In this document: in pieces, positions 41,299 to 61,228 of the stretch
How positions within the stretch are numbered: the stretch's first letter is position 1
Layout: every line of letters starts with the position of its first letter
Assembly: GCF_000429645.1 (NCBI RefSeq)
Contig: NZ_KE386933.1
Span: 631,711 to 695,710 of the forward strand
From: Niveispirillum irakense DSM 11586
Lineage (GTDB): Bacteria; Pseudomonadota; Alphaproteobacteria; Azospirillales; Azospirillaceae
Reading direction: 5' to 3'
Length of the DNA: 64,000 bases
Position numbers and translations under genes: made by a program
The notes under the pieces: model-generated
Told to the model about the DNA's origin: nothing
Databases searched by the model: none
What the model saw: only the letters and a program-made list of their open reading frames with translations

Positions 41299-42675
41299 AT
41301 GACCGCCCCTGACCCCGAGGCCGGTGTGACGAAGCCGGCAAATCGATTCGGCTGGTTTGCCGACGACAAGATGCGCCGCCTGTTCGGCAATGCCGGCATT
41401 CTGCTGGGCGGCAAGACGGTGAATGCCATTGCCGGTCTGGCTGGGCTGGCGATTGCTGCCCGCGCGCTGGGTGTTGAACAGTTTGGCGTGCTGGTATTGA
41501 TCCACACATTCACCCAGGCCATTGGTGAGATCGCCAAGTTCCAGTCCTGGCAGGCGGTGCTGCGCTATGGCACGCCGGCCCTGGCCGAGGGACGCAAGGG
41601 TGATTTTCAGCGTCTGCTGCGCTTCACCATCTTTCTGGATGGCGGCAGTGCCGTGGTCGGCATGTTCCTGTCGGTGCTGGTGGCCTGGGTGGCCGGCCCG
41701 CATTTCGACTGGCCAGCGGACCAGATGCCCGCGGCGCTGATCTATGTCACCTCTGTCCTGTTCATGGTGCAGGCGACGCCCACCGGCGTGCTGCGCCTGA
41801 TCGACCGATTCGACATCCAATCCATACAAAGCACGCTGGGCGCCATCATCCGGATGGTGGGCGGTGGCATTGTCTGGGCCGTGGGTGGCGGGATGGTCGG
41901 TTTCCTGATCGCCTGGTATGTCGCCACGGCCGTAGCCGGCATCTATCTGGTCTGGGCTGGCTGGCGGGAACTGGGCAAGCGCGGCCTGCTGGACGGGTTT
42001 ACCTGGCGTGGCGATGGCGGCTCCCTGACGCGGGGCTTCGATGATATCTGGCGATTCGTCTGGTCTACCAACCTCTCTTCCACCCTGGAACTGGCCTATA
42101 CCCATGTTGGCACGCTGGCCGTGGGCTGGATGCTGGGGCCGAAGGATGCGGCCCTGTTCCGCATCGCCCGCCAGTTGGGCGAAGCGCTGGCCAAGCCGGC
42201 CAAGCTGCTGATCCCGGCGATATATCCGGAACTGGCGCGCATGACGGCGGCGGGGGAGCATAAGGCCATGCATGCGCTGGTGATGCGGTCCGCCACCCTG
42301 GCAGGCGCCGGTGCCATGCTGGCGCTGGTCATCTGCTGGGTGCTGGGGGAATTCGCCCTGCGGGTCATTATCGGGCCGGAATTTGTCGATGCTTTCCCGG
42401 TCATGATGTGGCTGGTGGCGGCGGCGGTGCTGGGCATCTGGTCCTTCCCGCTGGAGCCGGTGCTGGTATCGGGCGGGGAGGCGCATACGGCGCTGAAGGT
42501 CCGGATATGGACCACCATCGCCTATATGCCGGTGCTGCTGTTCTGCATCGACCAATATGGGCTGATCGGGGCGGGCTGGGCGCGCATGTTCTCCGCCTTC
42601 CTGGTACTGGTGGCTTTTCTGGTTCCTGTGCTGCGCTGGTTCCGCCAGCGCATGGATAATAAGACGGGGGGCTGA
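41299..42675 (+). CDS. Polysaccharide/lipid flippase, Wzx/MOP superfamily
   Basis: 458 residues with about 12 hydrophobic segments. LFGNAGILLGGKTVNAIAGL at the start and ALGVEQFGVLVLIHTFTQAI are typical of Wzx-type flippases. Such proteins turn lipid-linked saccharides or lipids across the inner membrane. It opens the plus-strand island, and its stop overlaps the ATG of the next gene (TGATG). In this setting it might move a sphingolipid or its glycan; this is inference. Confidence 0.88.
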   Translation: MTAPDPEAGVTKPANRFGWFADDKMRRLFGNAGILLGGKTVNAIAGLAGLAIAARALGVEQFGVLVLIHTFTQAIGEIAKFQSWQAVLRYGTPALAEGRKGDFQRLLRFTIFLDGGSAVVGMFLSVLVAWVAGPHFDWPADQMPAALIYVTSVLFMVQATPTGVLRLIDRFDIQSIQSTLGAIIRMVGGGIVWAVGGGMVGFLIAWYVATAVAGIYLVWAGWRELGKRGLLDGFTWRGDGGSLTRGFDDIWRFVWSTNLSSTLELAYTHVGTLAVGWMLGPKDAALFRIARQLGEALAKPAKLLIPAIYPELARMTAAGEHKAMHALVMRSATLAGAGAMLALVICWVLGEFALRVIIGPEFVDAFPVMMWLVAAAVLGIWSFPLEPVLVSGGEAHTALKVRIWTTIAYMPVLLFCIDQYGLIGAGWARMFSAFLVLVAFLVPVLRWFRQRMDNKTGG

Positions 42676-43802
42676 TGCGGGTCGGGTTCCTTTACATCAC
42701 CCAGTTCCACCAGATCCTGCACAGCCTGCCGACGGCGCTGGAGCTTTCCATCCTGCGGCCCGATTTCAAGGTGGAGATCTGGGGTGCCACGGCCGGGCAT
42801 CTGGAATTCATCCAGCGGCTGGTGCCGCTTTATCCGGGCGCCAAGGTGGAATATCACCTTCTGCGCCAGCCCTGGCCAATGCGGCTTTATCAGCGTTACG
42901 CCATCCAGAATGTCCCGCCCAAGGTGGTGACCCTGTTCCATAACCGGCGCCGATTGAATGAGTTGGATGCGCTGGTGGTGCCGGACAAGACCAGCCTGAT
43001 CCTGCGCCGCATGGGCTGTACCCACCCGCTGTTCATCAATACCGAACATGGGGCTGGCGACCGGGACGTGACCTTCGACCCCCGCGTCGCCCAGTTCGAT
43101 TTCAACCTGTTGCCTAGCCCCAAGACAGCGGCACGCCTGCTGGCCGATGGCTATCTGAAGCCGGGCCAGTATGCCGTCGGCGCCTATGCCAAGTTCGACA
43201 TTGTGCGCCGGATGCATGCGGGGCGGCCGCCGCTTTTCGCCAATGGCCGACCGACCGTGCTGTACAATCCGCATTTTCTGCAGCGCCTGTCCTCCTGGCA
43301 CCGCTGGGGATGTGACGTGCTGCGGGCCTTTGCGGCGCAGGATCGGTATAATCTGGTCTTCGCGCCCCATGTCCGGCTGTTTGATCCTCCCACGCCGGCC
43401 AAGCTGGCGGATTTCCAGTCCTTCGCCGAGGTGCCGCACCTGATGATCGATCTGGGGAGCGAGCGGAGCGTGGATATGAGCTACACGCTGGGCGCCGATC
43501 TCTACCTTGGTGATGTCAGCAGTCAGGTCTATGAATTCCTGATGCAGCCGCGCCCTTGCCTGTTTCTCAACGCCCATGGGGTGAATTGGCACCCGGACAG
43601 TTGCTATGCCTTCTGGAAATTGGGGCCTGTGCTGGATGGAGTGGCGGGGTTGATGGCAGGGGTGGATGAGGCCTTTGCCCGCCATGGCGATTTTCTGCCC
43701 ATTCAGCGGCAGGCGCTGGCCGCCAATTTCGATCTCTCAATCGCCGATCCGGGCCGCCACAATGCCGCCTTGTTGGCCGATTATCTGCTGTCCCGTAAGT
43801 GA
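42675..43802 (+). CDS. GT-B-fold protein similar to CDP-glycerol glycerophosphotransferases
   Basis: 375 residues. It has no signal peptide. A short N-terminal Rossmann strand (MRVGFLYITQFHQIL) and a C-terminal block LGADLYLGDVSSQVYEFL resemble the TagF/Glyphos_transf pattern (…ISDYSS…FEF…). INTEHGAGDRDVTFDPRVA holds a conserved His. I infer that it transfers a glycerophosphate- or sugar-type group. Coupled to the flippase by TGATG, it precedes acps by 185 bases. A role in extending an anionic headgroup is plausible but unproven. Confidence 0.55.
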   Translation: MRVGFLYITQFHQILHSLPTALELSILRPDFKVEIWGATAGHLEFIQRLVPLYPGAKVEYHLLRQPWPMRLYQRYAIQNVPPKVVTLFHNRRRLNELDALVVPDKTSLILRRMGCTHPLFINTEHGAGDRDVTFDPRVAQFDFNLLPSPKTAARLLADGYLKPGQYAVGAYAKFDIVRRMHAGRPPLFANGRPTVLYNPHFLQRLSSWHRWGCDVLRAFAAQDRYNLVFAPHVRLFDPPTPAKLADFQSFAEVPHLMIDLGSERSVDMSYTLGADLYLGDVSSQVYEFLMQPRPCLFLNAHGVNWHPDSCYAFWKLGPVLDGVAGLMAGVDEAFARHGDFLPIQRQALAANFDLSIADPGRHNAALLADYLLSRK

Positions 43803-43987
43803 CATGGCTCTTTAACGGGGCGCTTAGACGCGCTGGCGCATTGCCCCGAACCTGTCCGTCTGGTATGAGCGCGCATCATTGTGGCGTTGAAGCCGCGATG
43901 CGGCTGCCTGCGCGCGCCTCGGAACAGCTTTCATTCTACCAGAGCGGGCGGGTCGCCTCCCCGTTTGAGCATTCGGAATAGTTCGCC

Positions 43988-45715
43988 ATGGTCAGTCCTA
44001 CCCCCTCTTTTCATGCGCTGCCCTCCCGGCTGGCGGACTTTACGACCGTACCCGAGGCCATTTCCTACGCGGCGCAGGGTGAGACGGGCCTGAATTTCTA
44101 TTCCGGCAAGGGTGAATTGCTGGAGGCATTGCCTTACCGCGACATGAAGGCCCAGGCGGAGGCTCTGGCGCGCCGCATGCTGGCCAGCGGTCTGGTCAGG
44201 GGGGACCGTGTTGCCATCATCGCGGAGAGCGATGGCGATTTCATGCGGGCCTTCGCCGCCTGCCAGTTTGCCGGGCTGGTTCCCGCACCGCTGCCGCTGC
44301 CGGCGGCCTTCGGGGGCAAGGACGCTTATATCGACCATATCCGCCGCATGATGCAGGGCGCTTCTGCCGCTGCCGCCCTGTCGCCGGCCAATCTGGCTGA
44401 CTGGGTCGCCGCCGCCGCCGATGGGCTGGGCATGAAGGCGGTGGGAACGCTGGCCGTGTTCGACGGTGTGGATGGCAGCGGCATCGAATTGCCCACCATC
44501 GGCCCCGATGATCTTTGCTATCTGCAATTTTCCAGCGGCAGCACCCGCTTCCCCCTCGGCGTGGCGGTAACCCAGCGGGCGCTGATGGCCAATGCGCATG
44601 CCATCACGGCCCATGGGCTGAAAATCACCAAGGATGACCGCTGTGTCTCCTGGCTGCCGCTCTACCATGATATGGGGCTGGTCGGCTTCCTGCTGACCCC
44701 GATGGTTTGTCAGGTTTCGATCGATTATCTCCCGACCCGTGAATTTGCCCGCCGCCCGCTGCTGTGGCTGAGCCTGATCACGCGCAACCGTGGCACGCTC
44801 TCCTACAGCCCGTCCTTCGGGTATGAGCTTGCTGCCCGCCGTGCGGAGACGGCGTCCACCGAAGGGCTGGACCTGTCGACCTGGCGCGGTGCCGGCATTG
44901 GCGGTGATATGGTCCGCCCCCGCGTCATGCGCAAATTCGCTGAAACCTTCGCCAACCGTGGCTTTAAGGCGCAAGCCTTCGTGCCCTCCTATGGCATGGC
45001 GGAAGCGTCGCTGGCCCTGTCTTTCGCGCCGCTGGACACCGGTGTCGTGACCGATCTGGTTGATCTGGACCGGCTGGAGAATGAGGGTGTGGCTGTGCCG
45101 CCGGATGCGGACACCCAGCGCTCACGCGAATTTGTGCTGAATGGACCGGTCCTGCCGCTGCATGAGCTGGAAATCCGTGACCCGGATGGCCGTATCCTGC
45201 CGGAAAAGCGCGTGGGCCGGGTCTTTACCCGGGGCCCGTCCCTGATGCGGGAATATCTGGATCGGCCAGAGGAAACGGCGGCCGTTCTGTCCCCCGAGGG
45301 CTGGCTGGATACAGGCGATCTCGGCTATCTCTGCGACGGGCAGATCGTCATCACCGGTCGGGCCAAGGATCTGATTCTGGTAAATGGCCGCAATATCTGG
45401 CCGCAGGATCTGGAATGGTCGGCTGAACATGCGGTGGAGTCGCTGCGCAGCGGCGATGTGGTGGCCTTCTCCGTGGACAAGGATGCCGGCGAGGATGTGA
45501 CGGTGCTGGTGCAGTGCCGTGCCACCCAGCCTGACGCGCGCGAGGCCCTGATGGCGGCTGTCAGCGGTGTGCTGCGTTCGGCCCATGGGGTGGAAGTGAC
45601 GGTGGTGCTGGTGCCGCCGCATTCCTTGCCGCAGACCTCTTCCGGCAAGCTCAGCCGGTCGCGGGCCAAGCAGATGTATGTGCAAGGTGCCTTCAGCGCC
45701 AAGGCATCGGGCTGA
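43988..45715 (+). CDS. acps: Acyl-ACP synthetase of the sphingolipid pathway (fatty-acyl-AMP ligase family)
   Basis: 575 residues. The adenylate-forming motifs are clear: the phosphate loop YLQFSSGSTRFPLG, YGMAE, TGDLGYL, RAKDLILVNGRNIWPQDLE and the catalytic lysine in SSGKLSR. The FAAL-type core with FTTVPEAISYAAQ at the start suggests it charges a fatty acid as acyl-AMP onto a carrier protein. In Caulobacter the homologous enzyme charges the dedicated ACP that feeds serine palmitoyltransferase. cerR follows after two bases, and acp and spt lie downstream. Confidence 0.9.
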   Translation: MVSPTPSFHALPSRLADFTTVPEAISYAAQGETGLNFYSGKGELLEALPYRDMKAQAEALARRMLASGLVRGDRVAIIAESDGDFMRAFAACQFAGLVPAPLPLPAAFGGKDAYIDHIRRMMQGASAAAALSPANLADWVAAAADGLGMKAVGTLAVFDGVDGSGIELPTIGPDDLCYLQFSSGSTRFPLGVAVTQRALMANAHAITAHGLKITKDDRCVSWLPLYHDMGLVGFLLTPMVCQVSIDYLPTREFARRPLLWLSLITRNRGTLSYSPSFGYELAARRAETASTEGLDLSTWRGAGIGGDMVRPRVMRKFAETFANRGFKAQAFVPSYGMAEASLALSFAPLDTGVVTDLVDLDRLENEGVAVPPDADTQRSREFVLNGPVLPLHELEIRDPDGRILPEKRVGRVFTRGPSLMREYLDRPEETAAVLSPEGWLDTGDLGYLCDGQIVITGRAKDLILVNGRNIWPQDLEWSAEHAVESLRSGDVVAFSVDKDAGEDVTVLVQCRATQPDAREALMAAVSGVLRSAHGVEVTVVLVPPHSLPQTSSGKLSRSRAKQMYVQGAFSAKASG

Positions 45716-45717
45716 TC

Positions 45718-46671
45718 ATGAAGCCGGTGGCTCCGCTGGCGGCTGTCACCGGTGCCACCGGCTTTCTGGGGCGTCATCTGGTGGCGGCCCTGGCAAGGGC
45801 CGGATTCCGGGTCCGGCTGCTGGTACGGCAGGACCCCACCCACCCATTGCTGGCAGGCATCCATCCCGAACTGGTGATGGGTGATCTGGGCAGTGATGCC
45901 GCCCTGGGCCGGCTGGTGCGCGGGGCCGATGTCGTGATCCACGCTGCCGGTCTGATCAAGGCCCGTAACCGCGATCATTTCTTTGCTGTGAATGAGGGTG
46001 GTTCCGCCCGGCTGGGGCGGGCCATCGCTGCCGGCGCGCCGGGCGCCCGTTTGGTGATCGTCTCTTCCCAGGCGGCGCGGGAGCCTCAGCTTTCCGATTA
46101 TGCGGCCTCCAAACGGGCAGGGGAGGGGGCGGCGATTGGCGCCGCCGGTACCGCGGATTGGGTCATTGTGCGTCCACCGGCCATCTACGGCCCGTGGGAC
46201 CGGGAGACACTGGCCTTGTTCAAAGCCCTGAAGGGGCCGCTCGTGCCGGTGCTGGGCGGGCCGAAAACCCGGATTGCCATGGTCCATGCAGTTGATGCCG
46301 CCGAGGCGGTTGCAGCCCTGGCCCGGCCCGGTGGGCCACCCGGCGAAACCTTTGCCCTGAGCGACGGCGTTACCGGTTATGGGTGGGGCATGATTCTCGA
46401 TAGTGCCGCCCAGGCCATGGGGCGGTCCCCCCCGCGCGTGGCCATCCCGCATTCGCTTCTGCGTGCGGTGGGGCGGATCGGGACTCTGCGGGCCGCCCTG
46501 ACCGGCCGGCCGCAGATGTTGACGGTTGGAAAAGTGCGGGAAATCAGCCATCCCGATTGGTCTGTCCCCGCCGCCGATTTGCCCCCGCCTGATGTCTGGC
46601 AGCCGCGCATTCCCTTAGCGGAAGGCTTCGCCGAGACCGTTTCCTGGTACCGCGCACATGGCTGGCTGTAG
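45718..46671 (+). CDS. cerR: SDR-family reductase of sphingolipid synthesis (CerR-like)
   Basis: 317 residues. The NAD(P)-binding TGATGFLG is at 11-18, the active-site pattern SSQ...YAASK is present (about 117-126), and the fold is that of an extended SDR/epimerase. CerR homologues reduce the ketone in the sphingoid moiety during bacterial ceramide synthesis. It starts two bases after acps. A generic NAD-dependent epimerase is the alternative, but the operon makes CerR likely. Confidence 0.85.
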   Translation: MKPVAPLAAVTGATGFLGRHLVAALARAGFRVRLLVRQDPTHPLLAGIHPELVMGDLGSDAALGRLVRGADVVIHAAGLIKARNRDHFFAVNEGGSARLGRAIAAGAPGARLVIVSSQAAREPQLSDYAASKRAGEGAAIGAAGTADWVIVRPPAIYGPWDRETLALFKALKGPLVPVLGGPKTRIAMVHAVDAAEAVAALARPGGPPGETFALSDGVTGYGWGMILDSAAQAMGRSPPRVAIPHSLLRAVGRIGTLRAALTGRPQMLTVGKVREISHPDWSVPAADLPPPDVWQPRIPLAEGFAETVSWYRAHGWL

Positions 46672-46906
46672 TTTTGTGTATGGAACAGATCAGCAATCTG
46701 TTGCGTAATTACCAGTCGCTGTGTCATCTGTCACAGAGCGTGGTGGCGGAACGTGCTTTGTTCTTGCATCCGCGAGCGTTGCATTTACCTTACCAAATCG
46801 TGACGCTTTTCTACGACCCAGGTCGGGGGGCACCTTCCTGGTTCGTTTTTCGTGAACAGCAATGGGCGGCCGGTGGCCGTCTCGAGTGATACCCTGGGGC
46901 GACTTA
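46672..46906. other. 235-base spacer before acp
   Basis: A gap, less GC-rich than its neighbours, lies between cerR and acp. It probably holds a promoter for acp-spt. A 71-codon open frame at 46674-46889 has no recognisable protein features or ribosome site. Confidence 0.4.
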
Positions 46907-47158
46907 ATGACTGCTGAGCTTGACGAGATTGTTGACGAAATAATCTCCGCCCTCGGGCCTACCGTTCAAACGCCAGTCACCATCACGACGGACACCAATA
47001 TCACGCGCGACCTCGGCCTGGATTCCCTGGCCGTGATGGATTTCGTGATGGTGCTCGAAGACAAGTTCGACGTCTCGATTCCGCTGGAGCGGATTGCCGA
47101 GGTCGAAACGATAGGCGATCTGGCTAGGACCATTCAGGATCTCCGGGGGCGCGCCTGA
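46907..47158 (+). CDS. acp: Acyl carrier protein dedicated to sphingolipid synthesis
   Basis: 83 residues from the ATG at 46907. It is a small acidic helical protein with the phosphopantetheine attachment serine in LGLDSLAVMDF (Ser40). It ends three bases before the spt start. In bacteria that use an ACP-linked acyl donor for serine palmitoyltransferase, the carrier is encoded beside it, as here. It lies apart from any fab genes, which argues against a housekeeping role. Confidence 0.93.
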   Translation: MTAELDEIVDEIISALGPTVQTPVTITTDTNITRDLGLDSLAVMDFVMVLEDKFDVSIPLERIAEVETIGDLARTIQDLRGRA

Positions 47159-47161
47159 GTC

Positions 47162-48382
47162 ATGACCATCCTTGCCAAATTCACGCAGCTTCGTGAATCG
47201 TACCAGAAGATGGCGGCCATTGGCCGCGATCCTTTCAGCGTCCGATTCGACGGCATTCTTTCCCCGACCGAGGGGATGTTGAATGGTCGCCGGACCATTC
47301 TGCTGGGCACCAACAATTATCTGGGCCTGACCTTCGACCAGAGCTGCATCGACAAGGGCGTCGAAGCACTGGTGGAACAGGGAACGGGCACCACGGGTTC
47401 CCGCATCGCCAATGGCTCCTACGGTGGGCATGGCGATCTGGAACGCGATCTGGCGGATTTCTATGGCCGTCAGCATTGCATGGTGTTCACCACCGGCTAT
47501 CAGGCCAATCTGGGCATCATCTCCACCCTGGTGGGCAAGGATGATATCCTGGTCATCGACGGTGACAGCCACGCCAGCATCTATGATGCGGCGAAGATGA
47601 CCGCTGGTCAGGTTGTGCGCTTCCGCCATAACGACCCGGACGATCTCTATAAGCGTCTGCGTCGCCTGTCCGACCATCCCGGCAACAAGCTGGTGGTTGT
47701 CGAAGGCATCTATTCCATGCTGGGCGACACCGCCCCCTTGCGCGAATTTGCGCAGGTGAAGCGGGAAACCGGTGCCTTCCTGCTGGTCGATGAAGCCCAT
47801 TCCATGGGTGTTCTGGGTCAGACCGGGCGCGGCCTGGCGCAGGAGGTGGGTGTTGAGGCGGATGTCGATTTCATCGTCGGCACCTTCTCCAAGAGCCTGG
47901 GCGCCGTTGGCGGCTTCTGTGTCTCCGACCTGCCGGATTTTGATATCCTGCGCGTTGCCTGCCGGCCCTATATGTTCACGGCATCGCTGCCGCCGTCGGT
48001 CATCGCCACCTCCATCCAGGCGCTGAAGCGCATGCGGGAGGAGCCGGGCCTGCGCCTGCGCCTGAATGCGAACTCCCATCGTCTGTATGAGGGGCTGCGC
48101 AATCTGGGCTTCCAGGTTGGGCCGGAAGCAAACCCGATCGTGGCTGTTGCCCTGCCGACGAAGGAACTGGCGATCACCTTCTGGAATGCCCTTCTGGAAG
48201 CCGGCCTCTATCTCAACCTGGCCCTGCCGCCGGCAACGCCGAACAGCCTGGCCCTGCTGCGGTCCAGCGTCAGCGCTGCCCACACGCCGCAGCAGATTGA
48301 CACCGCGATCCAACTGTTTGCCCAGGTTGGCCGTGAATTGGGGGTTCTGCCGGACCCTGCCATCGTGCAGGCGGCGGAATAA
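47162..48382 (+). CDS. spt: Serine palmitoyltransferase
   Basis: 406 residues, an alpha-oxoamine synthase. Key residues are the His in DGDSHASIYDAA (137) over the PLP ring, DEAHSMGVLG (210-219) and the PLP lysine in GTFSKSLGAVGG (Lys244). It condenses serine with an acyl-thioester to 3-ketosphinganine, the first committed sphingolipid step. Adjacent acp and acps show that the acyl group comes from ACP. KBL/HemA-type enzymes are related, but the context settles on Spt. A strong terminator follows. Confidence 0.94.
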   Translation: MTILAKFTQLRESYQKMAAIGRDPFSVRFDGILSPTEGMLNGRRTILLGTNNYLGLTFDQSCIDKGVEALVEQGTGTTGSRIANGSYGGHGDLERDLADFYGRQHCMVFTTGYQANLGIISTLVGKDDILVIDGDSHASIYDAAKMTAGQVVRFRHNDPDDLYKRLRRLSDHPGNKLVVVEGIYSMLGDTAPLREFAQVKRETGAFLLVDEAHSMGVLGQTGRGLAQEVGVEADVDFIVGTFSKSLGAVGGFCVSDLPDFDILRVACRPYMFTASLPPSVIATSIQALKRMREEPGLRLRLNANSHRLYEGLRNLGFQVGPEANPIVAVALPTKELAITFWNALLEAGLYLNLALPPATPNSLALLRSSVSAAHTPQQIDTAIQLFAQVGRELGVLPDPAIVQAAE

Positions 48383-48405
48383 GGTTTCTCCGTTTCAGGA
48401 TCAAG

Positions 48406-48440
48406 AAAAGCCCCCGCGCCGAGAGGTTCGGGGGCTTTTT
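48406..48440. terminator. Bidirectional intrinsic terminator between spt and the methyltransferase gene
   Basis: AAAAGCCCCCG (48406-48416) pairs with CGGGGGCTTTTT (48429-48440). It separates the plus-strand spt operon from the minus-strand methyltransferase end, which reaches 48439. Confidence 0.92.
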
Positions 48441-49044
48441 ATGTCGTCAGACGCCAGATGGCGGCGAGCCAGCCTTGGTCCCGGCGGGGTGCTGCCAGCG
48501 GCCGCCGCCATTGCGTAACGGGTGCAAAACCCGCATCGCGCATCAGCCGGGTGAGGCTTTGGGGACGGCGCAGGGCGACATGGCGCCCGTCCGGCAATTC
48601 CCCTTCACTGTTATCCCCTGTGGGATCACAGCTATAAAAAAGGCCGCCGGCAACCAGCCATTCCCGTACCTGCTTCAGCAGGCCCGGCAGCGCCGGGCTG
48701 GGCAGGTGGAACAGCAGGTGATGGGCATAAAGCGCATCATAGCGCCGCCCCTGCCAGGGTGGGGGTGCTGGTGACAGCAAATCATGCTGATGGACGGTCT
48801 GGCCCGTGCGGCTGGCGGCGATGGCAACCAGGGCCGGGGCACCTTCTACCCCTTCCACCCGCGCGCCTGCTGCGGCCAGCGCCGTCAGGTCACGGCCATT
48901 GCCGCAGCCAAGCTCAAGGATGCCTGGATCAGGGACGGGAAGGGCGGCCATCAGACGGGTGATGGCATCGTGTGTGTCATGATCGGCCAAGGCCGTGTCG
49001 TAATGGGCGGCATGGTGCTGGTAATGATCCAGCGTCCGGTTCAC
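48439..49044 (-). CDS. SAM-dependent class I methyltransferase
   Basis: 201 residues from a GTG that overlaps the upstream nucleotidyltransferase stop (GTGA). The SAM site ILELGCGNGRDLTAL lies near residues 40-54, with an acidic residue at the end of the second strand (VEGVEGAP). The substrate is unknown. It is the last gene of the minus-strand headgroup operon (CDP-alcohol transferase, kinase, nucleotidyltransferase, methyltransferase), so a lipid-headgroup substrate is worth testing. Confidence 0.8.
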   Translation of the reverse strand: MNRTLDHYQHHAAHYDTALADHDTHDAITRLMAALPVPDPGILELGCGNGRDLTALAAAGARVEGVEGAPALVAIAASRTGQTVHQHDLLSPAPPPWQGRRYDALYAHHLLFHLPSPALPGLLKQVREWLVAGGLFYSCDPTGDNSEGELPDGRHVALRRPQSLTRLMRDAGFAPVTQWRRPLAAPRRDQGWLAAIWRLTT

Positions 49045-49967: not shown

Positions 49968-49979
49968 TGGCCTTGCGCG

Positions 49980-50933: not shown

Positions 50934-50955
50934 GGGAAAAGCCGCTGCCCCCGCC

Positions 50956-52131
50956 TCAAGCCGACAGGTAGGAACGGATCGGCCCATTGGCCTGCGCGCG
51001 TTCCGCCTGGATGATCTGGGCCATATGGACCAGGAAGCACAGCACGATCCAGATCGCCACCAGCAACATGCCGATATCCGGCCGGCCCAGCAGGGTGGCA
51101 ATGGTCAGGACCACCAGATTGGGGTTGCGCCGGGCGGTGATGAGCCGGAAGAAACTGTCGAACGGCCGCCAGGTGTGCATGTCGATCTTGAAACGGCTGA
51201 GGAAGTAGCCTTCCTGCAGGCGCTGAGAGACATAGCCGGCCCAGATCACCGCCAGAACCCAGCCCTCGCCACCCGGCATGGTGAAGCCGGCCACGCTCAA
51301 CCCGGCCAGCCACGCCCACCACCAGAAGGGCGGATGCACCAGATCAATCCCATGATCAAAGATATTGCCCCATTTGCTGGAGGTCAGGGTGACACGCGCC
51401 AGCTTGCCATCCACCGTATCCAGGAAGGTCATGACCCAGGCAGCGGCCAATCCAGGCAGATACTGGCCCTGGGCGAACAGATAGAGCGCCAGCAGCATCA
51501 GGATGGCACCGATGCTGGTCACCATATTAGGGCTGAGGCCGATCAACGAACACCATTTGGTGACGTGCCGGGCCGGCAGGGGCCAGACATATTTGGTGAT
51601 GATGTCGGTCACGCCCTTATAGCTGCCGGCAAACATCCGCTTTTCGATCGCCGGCAATGCTTCCCGCGTCAGGCGCAGCAGGAATGGATTCTCCCGCTTG
51701 CGAAGCTGGTGATTATAGGTGGAGGACAGGTCCCCCGGCCCGATCACCCGCAGCCGCGCCGACAGGTCGGCCGGCACCACGCGGGATTCGGAGAGCATGG
51801 TGGCAGTGGCCACGGTGTCGGCGGCTTCGCAATGAGCGGCCACCGGCTCCCCGCTGGCGGGATCGATCAGGATCGTGTCCGGCGCCTGGATCAGGTCGCG
51901 CACCAGCACCTCGTCAAAGACGAAATCGGTGCGCAGCAGGATATGCGCGCTACCTTTGGCATCACCATCCCAGGCCCGCACCTCTGGCACGCCGTTGCGG
52001 ACCAGTTCACGCCGCAGACGCTCTGCCGAACTCATCCCCCACAAGCGCACGGGATTGGCGCCGATGGTGGCCCCCAGGAGGGGTTGGGTGGAGGGCTTGG
52101 CGGCGGCGGCCGGCTTATCGGATGCGGTCAC
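50956..52131 (-). CDS. CDP-alcohol phosphatidyltransferase with N-terminal extension (headgroup transferase)
   Basis: 391 residues from the GTG at 52131. The CDP-alcohol phosphotransferase motif is complete: Asp238-x2-DG-x2-AR, then Gly255, Asp259 and Asp263. It sits in a C-terminal domain (about 165-391) with about six membrane segments. Residues about 15-150 form a soluble domain with RTDFVFDEVLVRDLI that resembles part of a nucleotidyltransferase; its catalytic loop is not obvious. It would join a CMP-activated partner to an alcohol or phosphate at the membrane. It is the first gene of the minus-strand headgroup operon. Confidence 0.8.
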   Translation of the reverse strand: MTASDKPAAAAKPSTQPLLGATIGANPVRLWGMSSAERLRRELVRNGVPEVRAWDGDAKGSAHILLRTDFVFDEVLVRDLIQAPDTILIDPASGEPVAAHCEAADTVATATMLSESRVVPADLSARLRVIGPGDLSSTYNHQLRKRENPFLLRLTREALPAIEKRMFAGSYKGVTDIITKYVWPLPARHVTKWCSLIGLSPNMVTSIGAILMLLALYLFAQGQYLPGLAAAWVMTFLDTVDGKLARVTLTSSKWGNIFDHGIDLVHPPFWWWAWLAGLSVAGFTMPGGEGWVLAVIWAGYVSQRLQEGYFLSRFKIDMHTWRPFDSFFRLITARRNPNLVVLTIATLLGRPDIGMLLVAIWIVLCFLVHMAQIIQAERAQANGPIRSYLSA

Positions 52132-52227
52132 GGGGCGGATACCTGGCAGGCGGAAAAGAAGATGCGCGTCTTCATACAGGCTGACAGGCCCTTTGCCTAT
52201 GGGCAGCGCACAGCGTAGGCTGCGGCA

Positions 52228-53160
52228 ATGCAACGTTTCCGCTTTGCCCACCTGTCCGACCCGCATCTGCCGCTGGAGCCTGACCGGCTTCGCGGGCGGG
52301 GTCTGCTGTCCAAGCAGCTTTTGAGCTACCTGTCCTGGCGGCGCAAAAGAAGGCATCACCACCGCCCGGATGTGCTGGCAGCGCTGGTGGCCGATATCCA
52401 TGCCCATGCCCCCGACCATGTCGCGGTGACTGGTGATATCGCCAATATCTCCCTGCCCGGTGAGTTCACCCGCGGACGGGAATGGCTGGAAAGCGTCGGT
52501 CTGCCAGGGCAGGTCAGCTATATTCCGGGCAATCATGACGCGATGGTCACGGTGCCGTTCGGTCAGGGGCTTGGCTTGTGGCGGGACTATATGGAAGGCG
52601 ATGTGGTCGCCGCTCCCGGCTCCAGCCTGCCCGACGGGCTTTTCCCCTATGTCCGTCGGCGGGGGCCGGTCGCTTTTATCGGTTTGAATTCCGGCCTGCC
52701 GACCCTGCCGCTGCTGGCGACCGGCCGGCTGGGCACGGCGCAGGTGGAAGCACTGGGGGATATTCTGTCCGACCTGGGGCGGCAGGGACTGTTTCGCGTC
52801 GTCATGGTGCATCATCCCGTGGCGGATGGTGTGGTCAAACCCCGTAAGGGTCTGACTGATCGGGCGCGCCTGCGGGCGGTTCTCGCCCGCCATGGGGCGG
52901 AGATGCTGCTGCATGGCCATGCGCACCGGGCCAGCCTTTCCACCATTGCCGGTCCATCCGGCATCATTCCCTGCCTCACCGTGCCCTCGGCTTCCTGTGG
53001 CGGGCTTGGCAAGGATGAGGCGGCGAAATGGAACCTCGTCACGGTGATGCGGGAAGCAGACGGCTGGCGGGTCCAGGTGGACATACGTGGCTATGATAGG
53101 CGGGAAGGTATCATCCCCACGGGTGGTTACACATTGTTAGTGCCGTTTCCGACCGTTTAA
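52228..53160 (+). CDS. Metallophosphoesterase (calcineurin-like)
   Basis: 310 residues. The five metal-binding motifs are present in order: SDPH (Asp11, His13), TGDI, GNHD, a VHH pair and GHAH. An N-terminal arginine/histidine-rich loop (RRKRRHHHR) is unusual. The fold hydrolyses phosphomonoesters, diesters or pyrophosphates. It is divergent from the CDP-alcohol transferase and lies just before hit-lptFG. It could dephosphorylate a sphingolipid intermediate, but nothing in the sequence fixes this. Confidence 0.85.
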   Translation: MQRFRFAHLSDPHLPLEPDRLRGRGLLSKQLLSYLSWRRKRRHHHRPDVLAALVADIHAHAPDHVAVTGDIANISLPGEFTRGREWLESVGLPGQVSYIPGNHDAMVTVPFGQGLGLWRDYMEGDVVAAPGSSLPDGLFPYVRRRGPVAFIGLNSGLPTLPLLATGRLGTAQVEALGDILSDLGRQGLFRVVMVHHPVADGVVKPRKGLTDRARLRAVLARHGAEMLLHGHAHRASLSTIAGPSGIIPCLTVPSASCGGLGKDEAAKWNLVTVMREADGWRVQVDIRGYDRREGIIPTGGYTLLVPFPTV

Positions 53161-53238
53161 GCCTGCTTAGTCGCTTTGCCTGGGCGCGGAATGGTTCTAT
53201 GGTGCCGCCTTTCCGGCCGTTAGCCCCCGCGTGCGCCC

Positions 53239-53688
53239 ATGACCGACGTCCCGAACGCCACCTTGCTGAAATTCGGTTACCCGCACAGCGTGGTTGCCGA
53301 AACACCGTTCTGGACAATACAGGTCCGGCCGCAGCAGCCCACACTGGGGTCCCTGGTGCTGGTCTGCCGGGAACCGGTAACAGCTTTCGGTCAGGTCAGC
53401 CCGGCTGCCTTCGCCGCCCTTCAGCCCGTTGTGACACGGCTGGAGGCAGTGCTACGCCGTTTCGTCGATTATCAGAAAATCAACTATCTGATGCTGATGA
53501 TGGTCGATCCCGATGTGCATTTTCACGTTATCCCGCGTTATCAGGGGGAACGGGATTTCCAGGGCACGGTTTTCACCGATGCCGGCTGGCCCGGTCCACC
53601 CAATCTGGGGGCGGCTGTGCCCCTGGATGCGGCAGCGATGGCGGAAATGACAGCCCTGTTGAAGCGGCTGTGGGACGAGGTGGCGTGA
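53239..53688 (+). CDS. HIT-family hydrolase/AMP-lyase
   Basis: 149 residues. The histidine-triad region reads DPDVHFHVIPRY, the HxHxHxx-type motif with two visible His residues plus upstream contacts. HIT proteins act on nucleoside monophosphate linkages. The stop sits directly before the TTG of lptF, so the genes are coupled. A link to nucleotide-activated lipid headgroups is possible but speculative. Confidence 0.8.
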   Translation: MTDVPNATLLKFGYPHSVVAETPFWTIQVRPQQPTLGSLVLVCREPVTAFGQVSPAAFAALQPVVTRLEAVLRRFVDYQKINYLMLMMVDPDVHFHVIPRYQGERDFQGTVFTDAGWPGPPNLGAAVPLDAAAMAEMTALLKRLWDEVA

Positions 53689-53689
53689 A

Positions 53690-54949
53690 TTGATCGGAAC
53701 CGGGGCGTCTGGGGCGAAGGGGCGGGCGGTCAGCACAAGGCTGATTGACCGCTATATCCTGCGCGAAACCCTGAAGCCGCTGGCGGGGTCGCTGGCGGTG
53801 GTGCTGATTGCCTTGCTGATGGAGCGGCTGCTGCGGCTGTTCGATCTGCTGGCAGTGCATGGCGGGCCGTTCGATCTGGTCGTGCGCATGGCGGCCAATC
53901 TGATCCCCCATTATCTGGGGCTGGCGCTGCCGGCAGCCTTCTTCATTTCCATGTTCATCATCGTCGCCCGCATGGGCGAGGATAATGAGCTGGACGCCCT
54001 GCAATCGACCGGTCTGTCCGTGCCCCGTATTGCCCGCGCCTTTCTGGGGCTGGGTGCGGTACTGATGGTCTTCTCCGTTCTGCTGTTCGGCTTTCTGCAG
54101 CCCTATGGGCGCTATGGCTACAGCGCGGTCTACCATTTGGTGGTCAATGCCGCCTGGGATGCCACCGTGCCGCAGGCAACCTTCGTGGATGCGGGCGATG
54201 GGGTGACGATCAGTGCCGATATTGTCGATGGCACCGGCCGCAATCTGAACCATGTGTTCGTCCACCAGAAGCGCCCGAATGGGGAAACCTGGGTCACCAC
54301 GGCCAATAGTGGCACGCTGGCGGCAACCGCAGATCGGGAACGCATTCTCCTGACCTTGAATGACGGGGTACAGGTGCGCACCTTGCCTGACGGGCGCCAG
54401 CAGGTGCTGGATTTCGGTCGTCTGACCCTGGATCGGCCATTCCAACTGGTGACGGAACCGTTCCGGGCGCGGGGCAGCAGTGAACGCGAGCTGACCATTA
54501 TCGAACTGTGGCAGGAGATGCGTGACCCGCATTCCATCCTGCCCCTGAACCAGCTTCAGTCGGAATTCCATTCCCGTCTGGCGCGTGCCTTCAGCCTGCC
54601 CTTGCTGCCACTGTTGGCTGTGCCGATGGGGATGGCGGCCAAAAGGGCGCGGCGCGGGCAGGGCATCGCCCTGGCCACCCTGATCTTGCTGATTTACCAC
54701 CACACGATCCAGTTGGGGGAGAGCCTGGCCGATATCGGCCGCGTGCCGGCCCTGCTGGGTATCTGGATTCCCTTCGCCCTGTTTGCCGCGCTCTGTGCCT
54801 GGTTATTCCGTCGCGCCCAGGTGCGACCGGGCGAGAATCCCTTTGCCGCCCTTTTCGATGGCATTGATGCGGCCCTGACCCGGCTGGCGCGGCTGTTGCC
54901 CCGCCGTGCCAAGGATAAGGACAAGGCCGGGAAGAAGGTGGCACCGTGA
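53690..54949 (+). CDS. lptF: LptF-type lipid transporter permease (YjgP family)
   Basis: 419 residues from a TTG that follows the hit stop by one base. The pattern is LptF/YjgP: an N-terminal pair of membrane helices with LIDRYILRETLKPLAG, a large periplasmic domain (about 135-285) and a closing pair with FSLPLLPLLAVPMGMAAKRA. LptF with LptG and LptB extracts LPS from the inner membrane. Here it is inside a sphingolipid locus with no lptA/B/C/D or lptE. lptG overlaps it by four bases (GTGA). Confidence 0.9.
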   Translation: MIGTGASGAKGRAVSTRLIDRYILRETLKPLAGSLAVVLIALLMERLLRLFDLLAVHGGPFDLVVRMAANLIPHYLGLALPAAFFISMFIIVARMGEDNELDALQSTGLSVPRIARAFLGLGAVLMVFSVLLFGFLQPYGRYGYSAVYHLVVNAAWDATVPQATFVDAGDGVTISADIVDGTGRNLNHVFVHQKRPNGETWVTTANSGTLAATADRERILLTLNDGVQVRTLPDGRQQVLDFGRLTLDRPFQLVTEPFRARGSSERELTIIELWQEMRDPHSILPLNQLQSEFHSRLARAFSLPLLPLLAVPMGMAAKRARRGQGIALATLILLIYHHTIQLGESLADIGRVPALLGIWIPFALFAALCAWLFRRAQVRPGENPFAALFDGIDAALTRLARLLPRRAKDKDKAGKKVAP

Positions 54950-56016
54950 CCAATACCATCACCCGCTATCTCACCCGTACCTTCCTGATCCGCGTTCTGT
55001 CGGTGCTGGCCGCCTTGTCGGCCCTGCTGCAATTACTGGATCTGCTGGATGCTGCCAGTTCCGTGCTGGAACGTGGCGGCGGTATCCTGGATATCCTGCG
55101 CTATGTCAGCCTGCGCCTGCCGATGATCGTGGAGCGGCTGGTGCCGCTGGCGGTGCTGATCGGCTCCCTGTCCACGCTCTGGACCTTTGCCGCCACGAAT
55201 GAGTTCGTGGCCATGCGGTCGGTGGGCATGACGCCCTATCAGATCATGGGCGCGATGTTGCCGGCGGCGGTATTGCTGGCGGCTTTCCACTTTCTGATCG
55301 CTGATCAGATTGCGCCCCGGTCGGAACGGGCCTTTGTGACATGGTGGAATTCCACCACTGAGCCGGGAGAGGAGCCAGAGGCGCCGAAGCCGATCTGGTT
55401 CCGGCTGGGGAATGCTGTCGTGGGCATCCAGGATACGGGTGATGATGGTCTTAGCCTGACCGGGCTGGAACTGGTGGAGCGTGACGAAAAGGGCCGTGCC
55501 ACATTGATCCTGCAGGCTGAGAAGGGTGTCTGGCAGGGTGGCGCCTGGATGTTGACCGGTGTTTCCCGCACCCGCGTCGGCACCCCGCTGGAGGTGGAGA
55601 AGCTGGCGAGCCTGCGTTGGCAGGCGCCTTTGACCCCGGCCAACCTTGTGGAATTGCGGGTGCCGACGGAGAGCATTTCCGTTAACCGTCTGCTGCGCAT
55701 TCTGCACGGTGCCTGGGCTGGCAGCCAGAGCCCGGCTTATTATGCGACCCGTCTGCATTCAACCTATGCCGGCCCCCTGGCCTCCCTGGTCATGCTGCTG
55801 CTGGCGGCCCCTGTGGCCCATGGGCTGCGCCGCCGGGGTGGGGCGATGGGCAGCGTCGCCCTCGGCGTGGTCGTGGGGCTTACCTTCCTGCTATCGTCCG
55901 GGATTTTAGGGTCCATGGGGCAGGCTGGTGCCTTGCCGCCCTGGGTGGCGGTATGGTCGCCGCTGCTGTTCTTCACCGCCGTTGGCGGCGCGATCATGGT
56001 GCATGTGGAAGGGTAA
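54946..56016 (+). CDS. lptG: LptG-type lipid transporter permease (YjgQ family)
   Basis: 356 residues from a GTG overlapping lptF. It starts ITRYLTRTFLIRVLSVLAAL with the YjgQ pattern, has the FVAMRSVGMTPYQIMGAMLP coupling helix segment, a periplasmic beta-domain (about 125-250) and terminal helices with YAGPLASLVMLLLAAPVAHG. With LptF it would form the transmembrane part of an ABC transporter. Because the downstream genes are a hydroxylase and ceramide synthase, a sphingolipid substrate is possible; the housekeeping LPS role cannot be excluded. Confidence 0.9.
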   Translation: MTNTITRYLTRTFLIRVLSVLAALSALLQLLDLLDAASSVLERGGGILDILRYVSLRLPMIVERLVPLAVLIGSLSTLWTFAATNEFVAMRSVGMTPYQIMGAMLPAAVLLAAFHFLIADQIAPRSERAFVTWWNSTTEPGEEPEAPKPIWFRLGNAVVGIQDTGDDGLSLTGLELVERDEKGRATLILQAEKGVWQGGAWMLTGVSRTRVGTPLEVEKLASLRWQAPLTPANLVELRVPTESISVNRLLRILHGAWAGSQSPAYYATRLHSTYAGPLASLVMLLLAAPVAHGLRRRGGAMGSVALGVVVGLTFLLSSGILGSMGQAGALPPWVAVWSPLLFFTAVGGAIMVHVEG

Positions 56017-56142
56017 GGGAAAGGCAGGGGGCAGACCTGTCCCGCCTTGGTGCTTGCCGTCCCGCACGCGCCGCCCTACTTTCGCAGTGCCGTAATATTT
56101 ATCTCGCCTTCCCGGCGGGTGTTTCAGGAAAGGATCACGGGC

Positions 56143-56925
56143 ATGTGGGGCGATGCCTGGCGTGGCCGCAGCTATGACCTGGGGAAGATGAATCTGCGCG
56201 ATCTGGCGATCGCCTATTCAACATATCCCGCTATCCAGGCCTATGCGGCCCTGGCACTGATCAGCGCCGTGCTGGCTTTGGTCTGGGTGGAAAGCTGGCT
56301 GCGCCTGGGCGCAGTGGTGCTGGTGGCATCGCTGCTCTATCCGCTGGCCTGGTATGGCATCCACCGTTACATCCTGCATGGCCGCTGGCTTTACCGGATG
56401 AAATGGTCGGCCACCCTGTGGAAGCGCATCCATTTCGACCATCATCAGGACCCGCATAAGCTGGAAGTGCTGTTCGGCAGCCTGGCCAACACATTGCCGA
56501 CCATTGCCCTGGTGACAGTGCCGGTGGGTTGGTTGATTGACGGGCAGGCGGGCGCCGCCGCTGCGCTGGCGACCGGGCTGGTGACCACCTGTGTTTATGA
56601 ATTTTTCCACTGCATCCAGCACCTGAATTACAAGCCCCGCTGGGCTTGGGTGGCGCGGATCAAGCAGCTTCACCTCTACCACCATTTCCACAATGAAGAC
56701 GGCAATTACGGCATCATCGCCTATGGGCCGGACATGCTGTTCGGCAGCTATTATGCCGAAGCCAAGCAGATGCCGCGCAGCCCCACGGTTTTCAACCTGG
56801 GCTATGATCTGGCGGAAGCTGAGCGCTATCCCTGGGTGATGGAAGCAACCGGCGCCCCGCCGCGTGACCGCCCGCCGCGCCCGCCGGCCCAGACGGGTAA
56901 CGAGAAGGTGAAGGCGGCATCGTGA
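56143..56925 (+). CDS. Fatty-acid hydroxylase/sterol desaturase family membrane enzyme
   Basis: 260 residues from the ATG at 56143, with AAAGGA upstream. Hydrophobic segments are at about 25-50 and 55-75, with two more between 115 and 150. Histidine clusters for a di-iron centre are visible: HRYILH, HFDHHQDPH, HCIQH and HLYHHFH. The family hydroxylates fatty acids or sphingoid bases. The stop overlaps the ceramide synthase start (GTGA), so it probably hydroxylates the sphingoid base or the N-acyl chain of the ceramide; this is inference. Confidence 0.85.
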   Translation: MWGDAWRGRSYDLGKMNLRDLAIAYSTYPAIQAYAALALISAVLALVWVESWLRLGAVVLVASLLYPLAWYGIHRYILHGRWLYRMKWSATLWKRIHFDHHQDPHKLEVLFGSLANTLPTIALVTVPVGWLIDGQAGAAAALATGLVTTCVYEFFHCIQHLNYKPRWAWVARIKQLHLYHHFHNEDGNYGIIAYGPDMLFGSYYAEAKQMPRSPTVFNLGYDLAEAERYPWVMEATGAPPRDRPPRPPAQTGNEKVKAAS

Positions 56926-58073
56926 CCGGCACTTCCATCAATAGCGATGCCATCCGGATCGAGCAGGTCGCCGATCCGTCCGCCATGGATCAGTTCATCC
57001 GCCTTCCTTACCGGTTGCATCAGGGCGATCCCAACTGGGTGCCGCCCCTGATGCTGGAACGGCAGGAGGCGCTGTCACCCGCTAAGAATCCTTATTTCCA
57101 GCATGCCGAGGTGGCGTTTTTCCTGGCACGGCGCGGGGATCAGGTCGTGGGGCGCATTTCCGCCCAAGTTGACCGGCTGGCGCTGGAAACGCATCAGAAC
57201 GGCACCGGCCATTTCGGCCTGCTGGCGGCGGAAAATGATCCGGCCATCGTCCAGCTTCTGCTGGCAACGGCGGAGACCTGGCTGCGGGAGCGGGGGATTA
57301 CCCGCGTTATCGGTCCCTTCAACCTGTCCATCAATGAAGAGACCGGGCTGCTGGTATCGGGCTGGGACACGCCACCGATGCTGCTGATGGGCCATGATCG
57401 GGACTATCTGGGCGGATTGGTTGAGGCGGCGGGCTATGCTAAGGCCAAGGATATTTTTGCCTATCTCTATAATATTGAACGCGATTTGCCGCGCACCGTG
57501 CGCGGCGTGATCGACCGGCCCTGGCCGACAGACTTGCGGGTCCGCCCGCTGGACATGAAGCGGTATGATGAGGATTTGAAGATCATCACTGCCATCTTCA
57601 ATGATGCGTGGCTGAATAACTGGGGCTTCGTGCCGCTGACCGAGGCGGAAATCGCCCATATGGCCAAGTCCCTTCGTCCCCTGATCAATCCCCGACTGGT
57701 GCAGATTGCCGAGGTGAAGGGCGAGCCGGTGGCATTTGGCGTGTGCCTGCCCAATCTGAACGCTGCCATCCATGATCTGGGCGGCAAGCTGTTGCCCTTT
57801 GGCTGGGCCAAATTGCTGTGGCGGCTGAAAGTGACCGGCGTGAAGACGGCGCGCGTGCCGCTGATGGGTGTGAAGCGCAATATCTCCAAAGGGTTGGTGG
57901 CGGTGCTCCCTTTCCTGGTGATTGACGCGATGCGCAAGGAAGCCAAAGCGCTGGGATACGAGAAGATCGAGCTGTCCTGGATTTTGGAAGACAATATGCC
58001 GATGCGCCGGATCATCGAAGCGTTCGGCACCACCAACTATAAAACCTATCGGCTGTATACCAAGGATCTGTGA
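56922..58073 (+). CDS. bcerS: Bacterial ceramide synthase, GNAT-like N-acyltransferase (bCerS-like)
   Basis: 383 residues from a GTG overlapping the hydroxylase stop. Residues about 10-200 and 200-383 resemble paired GNAT-like lobes: LPYRLHQGDPNWVPPL, RGITRVIGPFNLSINEETGL, and a C-terminal SWILEDNMPMRRIIEAFG segment with YKTYRLY. This is the pattern of the Caulobacter-type ceramide synthase, which N-acylates the sphingoid base and is unrelated to the eukaryotic enzyme. Position after Spt/CerR-type genes supports it. The alternative is a related GNAT protein. Confidence 0.8.
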   Translation: MTGTSINSDAIRIEQVADPSAMDQFIRLPYRLHQGDPNWVPPLMLERQEALSPAKNPYFQHAEVAFFLARRGDQVVGRISAQVDRLALETHQNGTGHFGLLAAENDPAIVQLLLATAETWLRERGITRVIGPFNLSINEETGLLVSGWDTPPMLLMGHDRDYLGGLVEAAGYAKAKDIFAYLYNIERDLPRTVRGVIDRPWPTDLRVRPLDMKRYDEDLKIITAIFNDAWLNNWGFVPLTEAEIAHMAKSLRPLINPRLVQIAEVKGEPVAFGVCLPNLNAAIHDLGGKLLPFGWAKLLWRLKVTGVKTARVPLMGVKRNISKGLVAVLPFLVIDAMRKEAKALGYEKIELSWILEDNMPMRRIIEAFGTTNYKTYRLYTKDL

Positions 58074-58846
58074 TGTCCCAGCCGATGACGACCCTGATCC
58101 TGGCCGGGTCGCGCGGGCCGGACGATCCGGTGGCGCGGCTGGCTGGGGTCAGCCACAAGGCCTTCGCCCCCATTGCCGGTATTCCCATGCTGGTCCGCGT
58201 TGTGCGGGCGCTGACGGCCTCGCCTACCGTGGGCACGATCCATATCGCCATTGAACGGCCTGACCTGGTACGCGACCATCCGGAACTGGGCCTGTTGCTG
58301 GATGGCGGTCGGCTGGCCCTGCTGCCGGCGGAAGGCAGCCCCAGCCGCACCGTGGGGGCCGCCCTGGAAACCCTGGGGTCACCCCTGTTCGTCACCACGG
58401 CTGACCATGCGCTGCTACGACCGGAATGGGTGCAGTATTTCCTGAACAACCTGCCGGATGGTGCGGATGTGTGCGCCGCCCTGGCCCGGGATCATGTGGT
58501 GCAGGGGGCGGTGCCGGAAACCAAGCGCACGTATCTGCGCTTCGCGGACGGGGCTTTTTCCGGCTGCAACATGTTCGCCTTCCGCACCCCGCAAGCCGTT
58601 GGTGTTGCCCATCTATGGCGGCAGGTGGAAGCCCAGCGCAAAAATCCGCTGCGGATGATCCGCCTGCTGGGGCCGCTCTCGGTGCTGCGCTTCCTGCTCG
58701 GGCGGCTGACCCTGGGGGCGGCGCTGAAGCGCCTGGGTACCATTGCCGGCGCGCGTGCGGCGATTGTGGAAATGCCGTTCGGGCTGGCCGCCGTGGATGT
58801 GGACAAGGAAGCGGACATGGTGCTGGCGGAAAAGCTGCTGTCCTGA
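58073..58846 (+). CDS. MobA-like nucleotidyltransferase, candidate headgroup cytidylyltransferase
   Basis: 257 residues from the ATG at 58073, which overlaps the bcerS stop (TGATG) and has AAGGA upstream. It begins MTTLILAGSRG, the nucleotide-binding loop of NTP transferases, with LAGVSHKAFAPIAGIPML and a metal-site segment TTADHALL (the usual D is followed by H). Caulobacter has a phosphoglycerate cytidylyltransferase (CpgD, as I recall) in ceramide diphosphoglycerate synthesis; this may be its counterpart. Specificity is not readable from sequence. Confidence 0.65.
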   Translation: MSQPMTTLILAGSRGPDDPVARLAGVSHKAFAPIAGIPMLVRVVRALTASPTVGTIHIAIERPDLVRDHPELGLLLDGGRLALLPAEGSPSRTVGAALETLGSPLFVTTADHALLRPEWVQYFLNNLPDGADVCAALARDHVVQGAVPETKRTYLRFADGAFSGCNMFAFRTPQAVGVAHLWRQVEAQRKNPLRMIRLLGPLSVLRFLLGRLTLGAALKRLGTIAGARAAIVEMPFGLAAVDVDKEADMVLAEKLLS

Positions 58847-61079: not shown

Positions 61080-61228
61080 TCCGCTCTCCATCTAAAGGTT
61101 GTGTAAAGACGGGTTTAACACAATTTTTTCTTATGTAAATGGAGATCGTGAAGAGGGGCTGTTCGGTTTTTGAAGGTTCAATGCCCAAATTCATGGGATA
61201 AACAAGGATACGTAAAGGAAACGTCAAA

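Follow-up and report, generated by a model that had tools for sequence, protein, structure and literature searches.

A stretch of 64,000 nucleotides from Niveispirillum irakense DSM 11586, called the window here (C1:631711-695710 of a 5.45 Mb genome), carries an island of 17 genes at 41299-58846 that raises the question of which lipid they make and how that lipid is exported. As judged from its sequence, the locus is very probably a chromosomal phosphosphingolipid island of the kind that makes ceramide diphosphoglycerate (CPG2) in Caulobacter, with synthesis, headgroup and export genes acting as proposed below. The genes lie in four apparent transcription units, at 41299-43802 (+), 43988-48382 (+), 52035-48439 (-) and 52228-58846 (+), and the content of G and C at third codon positions (GC3) is high across the gene frames. 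Overlaps of 4 bases are found between LptF2 and LptG2, the hydroxylase and CerS, CerS and the nucleotidyltransferase, and CpgC and the methyltransferase, and the first two genes, for the flippase and a TagF-like protein, overlap by 1 base. Because the gene order agrees with that of locus L132 of Caulobacter vibrioides DSM 9893, the island is not a chance assembly.

In the proposed pathway, AasR (43988-45715, +), a fatty acyl-AMP ligase (FAAL)-type acyl-ACP synthetase matching NF006624 with 882.5 bits (cut-off 600), would charge the dedicated acyl carrier protein AcpR (46907-47158, +; PF00550, 49 bits) with a fatty acid, which the serine palmitoyltransferase Spt (47162-48382, +; NF047599, 678.7 bits, above the cut-off of 500) would join to serine. 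The GNAT-type bacterial ceramide synthase CerS (56922-58073, +; PF00583, 22.4 bits, cut-off 20.7) and the short-chain dehydrogenase/reductase CerR (45718-46671, +; PF01370 and synteny) would finish the (dihydro)ceramide, and an Scs7-like fatty acid or ceramide hydroxylase (56188-56925, +; PF04116, 64.3 bits, cut-off 31) would hydroxylate it.

The diacylglycerol kinase-type ceramide kinase CpgB (49980-50933, -; PF00781, GGDG motif) would then give ceramide-1-phosphate, which the Tam41-like CpgC (49041-49967, -; CC_1161), a predicted cytidine triphosphate (CTP):ceramide-1-phosphate cytidylyltransferase, would probably convert to cytidine diphosphate (CDP)-ceramide. The CDP-alcohol phosphotransferase CpgA (50956-52035, -; PF01066 and family alignment), a MobA-like nucleotidyltransferase (58070-58846, +; CC_1153 position, PF12804 in 24/24 family members), a calcineurin-type phosphoesterase (52228-53160, +; CC_1158 position, PF00149) and a remotely encoded CpgD would build a (phospho)glycerate headgroup. 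To this, the TagF-like protein with a GT-B fold (42675-43802, +; CC_1167 position), a CDP-glycerate (CDP-polyol) phosphotransferase as predicted from family profile and fold, would probably attach a further unit from CDP-glycerate, and a HIT-family protein (53239-53688, +; CC_1157 position, PF01230, 23.0 bits, cut-off 21.5) probably handles a nucleotide-linked intermediate. For export, a Wzx/MATE-type flippase (41299-42675, +; CC_1166 position, PF01943 and synteny with L132) may flip the lipid, and LptF2 (53690-54949, +; start codon uncertain) and LptG2 (54946-56016, +), assigned as cluster-type LptF and LptG by PF03739 and a tree, would use the common LptB/LptC/LptA/LptD bridge to bring it to the outer membrane.

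A cluster of this kind has been described in Caulobacter crescentus, where the account of the locus in PMC11324152 gives 17 genes, CC_1168-CC_1152, for ceramide, ceramide phosphoglycerate (CPG) and CPG2, and presumed transport, including a second LptC, LptF and LptG and a flippase. In the neighbourhood comparison that the original prediction had proposed, 15 of the 17 window genes were common to L132 in nearly the same order: the ceramide core, CpgA/B/C, the phosphoesterase, HIT in its position, LptF2/LptG2, CerS, the nucleotidyltransferase, the flippase and the TagF-like gene, the last two in swapped order. The hydroxylase and the methyltransferase (48439-49044, -; S-adenosylmethionine-dependent, PF13489, with a GTG start overlapping the end of CpgC) were present in the window island only, although a PF04116 protein lies elsewhere in the C. 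vibrioides control genome. Conversely, the CpgD-like gene lies inside L132 but outside the window island, and an LptC2-like open reading frame (ORF), named by position, adjoins the TagF-like gene of L132, whereas no second LptC was found for the window genome. According to the cluster comparison in PMC11324152, LptC2 is also absent from the N. eutropha, A. vinelandii and P. luteola clusters.

The distribution of the genes was followed in named genomes scanned with a CpgA alignment, from which the best 80 of 511 confirmed relatives were kept; their record titles include Caulobacter, Burkholderiales, Nevskia and others. Counted by tblastn at E<=1e-4, as lower bounds with many contigs ending inside the locus, HIT was found in 75 of the 80 loci, CpgC in 73, LptF2 in 71, and the phosphoesterase, LptG2 and CpgB in 70 each, followed by CerS and the nucleotidyltransferase (66 each), CerR and Spt (56 each), AasR (55), AcpR (54), CpgD (50), Wzx (33), the TagF-like gene (26), the hydroxylase (14) and the methyltransferase (3). 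Among 289 genomes of the class, CerS homologues were present in 40, the window's own included, and CpgA in 20, all of them CerS-positive (Fisher p 4e-20; the Fisher tests here take no account of kinship among genomes). The island is of a known kind, the Caulobacter CPG2-type phosphosphingolipid cluster, and it is not rare.

Three observations were made in the course of these surveys. In 31 of the 80 CpgA loci (L094, L100, L101 and others) a secreted protein, which we take to be DUF2141-like, is encoded on the opposite strand between the phosphoesterase and HIT genes; no counterpart was seen in the window island. Genomes G037, G165 and G263 each gave three CpgA-like matches: a main one and, at distances of up to ~17 kb from it, two weaker ones. 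These extra copies are possible headgroup transferases. Spt homologues were also found on plasmid records, 13 of 22 from Roseomonas (~60% identity) and the rest from Pseudomonas, Escherichia, Klebsiella, Rahnella and Sphingomonas, so spt can be plasmid-borne.

The original prediction had read the island as sphingolipid synthesis, headgroup and export genes, which stands as the best reading, and each gene type it named was found where it had placed it by family matches, CpgC by predicted fold alone; its two nucleotidyltransferases are the MobA-like one, identified by family, and CpgC, by predicted fold only. Its description of the island as complete failed, as the CpgD-like gene is ~273 kb distant and no second LptC turned up. 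The combination was not unusual either: the same set is reported for Caulobacter in PMC11324152, and LptF2 and LptG2 matches adjoin CpgA in the majority of loci counted above. Left unnamed were the TagF-like, methyltransferase, metallophosphoesterase and HIT genes and, just outside the island, MlaA. What the comparison adds points to a separate branch of the lipopolysaccharide (LPS) export machine and to headgroup genes set aside in earlier work.

The assignment of CpgC came from its predicted structure. When 22 family members were scanned against Pfam, no family was matched by more than one of them. A search of the Protein Data Bank (PDB) with the AlphaFold2 (AF2) model (pLDDT 92.1) returned Tam41 for all top five entries (best E 1.5e-8, TMq 0.50-0.55). 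The predicted fold is thus common to CpgC and the CDP-diacylglycerol synthase Tam41, from which CpgC differs in having no Pfam match and in its presumed lipid substrate, ceramide-1-phosphate; this model suggests that CpgC makes CDP-ceramide. An InterPro hint of CDP-diacylglycerol synthase was already noted in the treatment of CpgC in PMC11324152, and the discussion of PMC12275187 called its mechanism unidentified in 2025.

The product of CpgD in Caulobacter is CDP-glycerate. In the window genome a CpgD-like cytidylyltransferase gene was located at C1:399321-400052, ~273 kb before the island, with 53% identity to the L040 homologue, the CpgD label resting on the place of the gene after the counterpart of CC_1153 in L132 and on sequence reading. 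The absence of CpgD from the island, together with a methyltransferase found in only 3 of the 80 named loci (L088, L089 and L153), all Niveispirillum-type, could mean that the headgroup is not a (di)phosphoglycerate; we consider this unlikely given the CpgD-like gene elsewhere in the genome and the presence in the island of CpgA, CpgB, CpgC, the phosphoesterase and the nucleotidyltransferase. A long ORF at 50956-52926 that might be taken for a CpgD-CpgA fusion was rejected, the start being more likely near 52035; the 422-aa extended form of CpgA returned CDP-alcohol transferases only in a PDB search.

For the protein encoded at 42675-43802, no Pfam match was obtained with the window sequence alone, and none to PF04464 at E<=1, whereas 17 of 24 family members matched PF04464 at E<=1 (best 7.1e-4). 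A PDB search with the family profile placed the TagF-like Cps3D first (E 0.0087) and TarL at E 0.63, with unrelated matches of similar strength. Motifs HGAGD, PH and GDVSSQ are conserved in the family alignment, and presumably correspond to motifs of TagF. The AF2 model (pLDDT 89.8) was closest in Foldseek to UDP-GlcNAc 2-epimerases (E 1.3e-12), with TagF at E 4.8e-11 and TMq 0.59-0.63 among the listed chains. Like the CDP-polyol phosphotransferases TagF and TarL, the protein has a GT-B fold and weak PF04464 matches in its family, but it is a single small domain without a Pfam match of its own.

The protein might instead be another GT-B enzyme, a relative of glycosyltransferases or UDP-GlcNAc 2-epimerases acting on a sugar, as the better Foldseek score of the epimerases and weak family matches to PF13579 (3/24) and PF13439 (1/24) would allow. 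This is rather unlikely in view of the PF04464 matches, of Cps3D as best profile match despite its close competitors, and of the known chemistry of the cluster, which uses CDP-glycerate (PMC12275187). The protein resembles TagF in its predicted mode of action, without being filed as a PF04464 member. Of 20 named loci with both a TagF-like and a flippase gene, 15 have the two on the same strand and at most 90 bases apart, and 11 of these 15 pairs overlap by 4 bases. In its treatment of the pathway, PMC12275187 likens CDP-glycerate to the CDP-glycerol used by TagF and assigns the transfer step to CpgA, and the gene survey of PMC11324152 calls CC_1167 probably unrelated, yet gives it cofitness values of 0.57 (spt) and 0.54 (CC_1159). 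Of the 289 genomes of the class sample, 10 matched the TagF-like gene, 7 of these being CpgA-positive, and the protein may add a lineage-specific unit. TagF-like matches without a CerS match were seen in G091 and G265, the latter match being weak.

The HIT protein accompanies CpgA in nearly all of the 80 loci. Of the five that lack it, four (L105, L124, L134 and L164) break off at or close to the point where the gene would be expected, whereas the absence from L156 looks real. H94 and H96 are invariant in 24 rows, and the first position of the triad is mostly Asp. In the class sample, HIT was found in 23/289 genomes (15 CpgA-positive, none CerS-positive without CpgA and 8 CerS-negative; p 1.5e-15 with CpgA). 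An ORF at 53199-53693, in a frame different from that of the HIT gene and with low GC3 (0.46), was rejected as a gene.

The hydroxylase gene adjoins CerS in 26/39 CerS loci of the class sample (one per genome, the window's excluded). Ten His residues are invariant across 18 aligned rows, and a profile search of the PDB at E<=1 returned Scs7 only (best 2.2e-14), so that profile match and invariant His are shared with the Scs7/FA2H ceramide hydroxylases. Scs7 carries a cytochrome b5 domain, whereas the 245-aa window protein has none. The window genome encodes two more PF04116 proteins, and homologues with 63-64% identity lie between the TagF-like and flippase genes in loci L109 (C. segnis) and L111 (Caulobacter). 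Section 9 of PMC11324152 reports that Caulobacter uses CC_0202, elsewhere in the genome, as hydroxylase.

Two LptF/LptG pairs were found in the window genome, one in the cluster and one outside. Against the models for LPS exporters, LptG2 scored 275.6 bits with TIGR04408 (cut-off 240), while LptF2 reached only 219.3 bits with TIGR04407 (cut-off 230). A tree of 102 proteins was made from the window and 31 chosen cluster loci, with two LptG rows lost to the length filter, plus the non-cluster pairs of 20 genomes, L181 having been dropped beforehand. A single branch set each of the four groups apart from all the rest: cluster F (32 rows, support 100/98), cluster G (30, 99/96), non-cluster F (20, 100/100) and non-cluster G (20, 100/99). 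The cluster proteins thus did not group with the non-cluster pairs, which are LPS-type by presumption, the tree having no proven LPS exporter such as that of Escherichia coli. In a comparison of residues separating the cluster proteins from the others, three columns passed, with nothing interpretable.

Four or more PF03739 matches were present in 16/40 CerS-positive and 1/40 CerS-negative genomes (Fisher p 2.6e-5), the latter being a convenience sample of smaller and less complete genomes (1/29 at completeness of at least 90%; all 40 CerS-positive genomes are at least 91% complete). The remaining CerS-positive genomes had three matches (1 genome), two (21) or, at E<=0.001, none (2, G066 and G280). 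In at least 19 of the 21 two-match genomes, one or both of the matches listed are located on the same contig as CerS, at a distance of up to ~27 kb, and 11 of the 21 were placed as cluster type in the tree, one through LptF only. From copy counts, location on the CerS contig and tree placement, many CerS-positive genomes therefore seem to hold the cluster-type pair only.

In genome G275 (92 stretches, 1.806 Mb, 91% complete) PF03739 matched twice, each time within the cluster. The non-cluster LptF of the window genome found no match in G275 and the non-cluster LptG matched the cluster LptG alone, whereas all 17 island-related queries (the island genes minus the methyltransferase, plus CpgD) were matched. 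At E<=0.01, E. coli LpxC, LpxB, LpxK and WaaA had no tblastn match in G275; with the Sinorhizobium queries, E values were no lower than 0.92 for WaaA and 0.018 for LpxK. LpxA (E 2.4e-4) and LpxD (E 2.4e-5 and 0.001) matched weakly, the shared match looking like a generic hexapeptide protein. All five control genes (FabZ, RnhB, Hpf, CoaD and MutM) were recovered, and matches were also obtained for LptB (54%), LptA (E 6e-7) and LptD (E 1.5e-15), together with a homologue of MlaA and ABC proteins resembling MsbA. LptC was not found in G275, an uninformative result with an E. coli query that misses the LptC of the window genome as well.

As query controls, the E. coli sequences were run against a 7-kb Sinorhizobium locus, where they matched waaA at E 7e-70 and lpxK at E 8e-37. 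Against a collection of 7.3 billion bases, E. coli WaaA matched Sinorhizobium (E 6e-52), and E. coli LpxC matched records bearing the labels Sinorhizobium, Rhizobium and Paracoccus. With nine E. coli lpx/lpt queries, loci L001-L189 (2.41 Mb) yielded no match at E<=1e-5; as these include L085, the LptC/LptA locus of the window genome, LptA and LptC from E. coli have little power as queries.

The window genome's LptC lies in L085 with LptB (57% to E. coli), LptA and RpoN there being assigned by position and sequence reading. It was the only LptC by Pfam and the only one convincingly found with C. vibrioides LptC2 (27%, E 7e-12). LptF2G2 shares its families with the LPS exporter LptB2FG, for which an LptC-LptA-LptB locus exists in the genome, but it has clades of its own and is the sole pair found in a genome without lpxC/lpxB/lpxK/waaA matches. 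That the cluster pair is an ordinary second LPS exporter lying beside sphingolipid genes by happenstance is very unlikely: LptG2 passes the LPS model and the single LptC makes shared parts probable, but LptF2 misses its cut-off, both proteins stand apart from the non-cluster pairs, LptF2 recurs in CpgA loci of varied titles, and G275 retains the pair though those four lipid A genes gave no match. The separate clades and the state of G275 support sphingolipid export by LptF2G2, and this one incomplete genome fits an Lpt bridge serving sphingolipids. In 2024 the introduction of PMC11324152 gave the route of sphingolipids to the outer membrane as unknown.

Several points weigh against the proposed pathway. 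HIT was not found in 5/20 CpgA-positive genomes and was found in 8 CerS-negative ones, and in the 2024 cofitness data (PMC11324152) CC_1157 mutants have no high cofitness with the cluster, which disfavours an essential role for HIT. Matches to the TagF-like gene were lacking in 13 of the 20 CpgA-positive genomes, so with only 7 of 20 it is not needed for CPG2 everywhere. In the published genetics CpgA is dispensable for CPG, which leaves CDP-ceramide without an obvious user. With CpgD outside the island and no LptC2 found, the chemistry may differ from that of Caulobacter, and the presence of a non-cluster LptFG pair means that LptF2G2 could be partly redundant. In the open-licence literature, subscription papers lying outside the search, no report was found of a sphingolipid role for CC_1157, of CC_1167 named as TagF-like or of sphingolipid export by LptF2G2.

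Next to the flippase gene, and divergent from it, lies a gene for an MlaA-type outer membrane lipoprotein of retrograde lipid transport (40251-41051, -; PF04333, 230 bits). MlaA also adjoins Wzx in L037 and L089, both from congeners, a weak association that may connect the export of sphingolipids with lipid asymmetry. Farther on, a phage tail collar-domain protein (60651-61091; PF07484) stands by itself, flanked by an AsnC-type regulator and a NUDIX gene, no search having been aimed at further phage genes.

Taken together, the island can be read as an ancient, ceramide-dedicated LptF2G2 on a common LptB-LptA-LptD bridge that can outlive LPS, with teichoic-acid-like headgroup building by a TagF-like transferase that uses CDP-glycerate and is coupled to a flippase, and a Tam41-like CpgC giving CDP-ceramide. 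This joint reading is a tentative one, to which we give somewhat less than an even chance. With the clade split, G275, the protein resembling TagF and the Tam41-like fold, the export route and the mechanism of CpgC become directly testable by gene deletion and enzyme assay. If the reading is true, lipid A and the LPS-type pair would have been lost from some alphaproteobacteria, in which the bridge was retained for sphingolipids.

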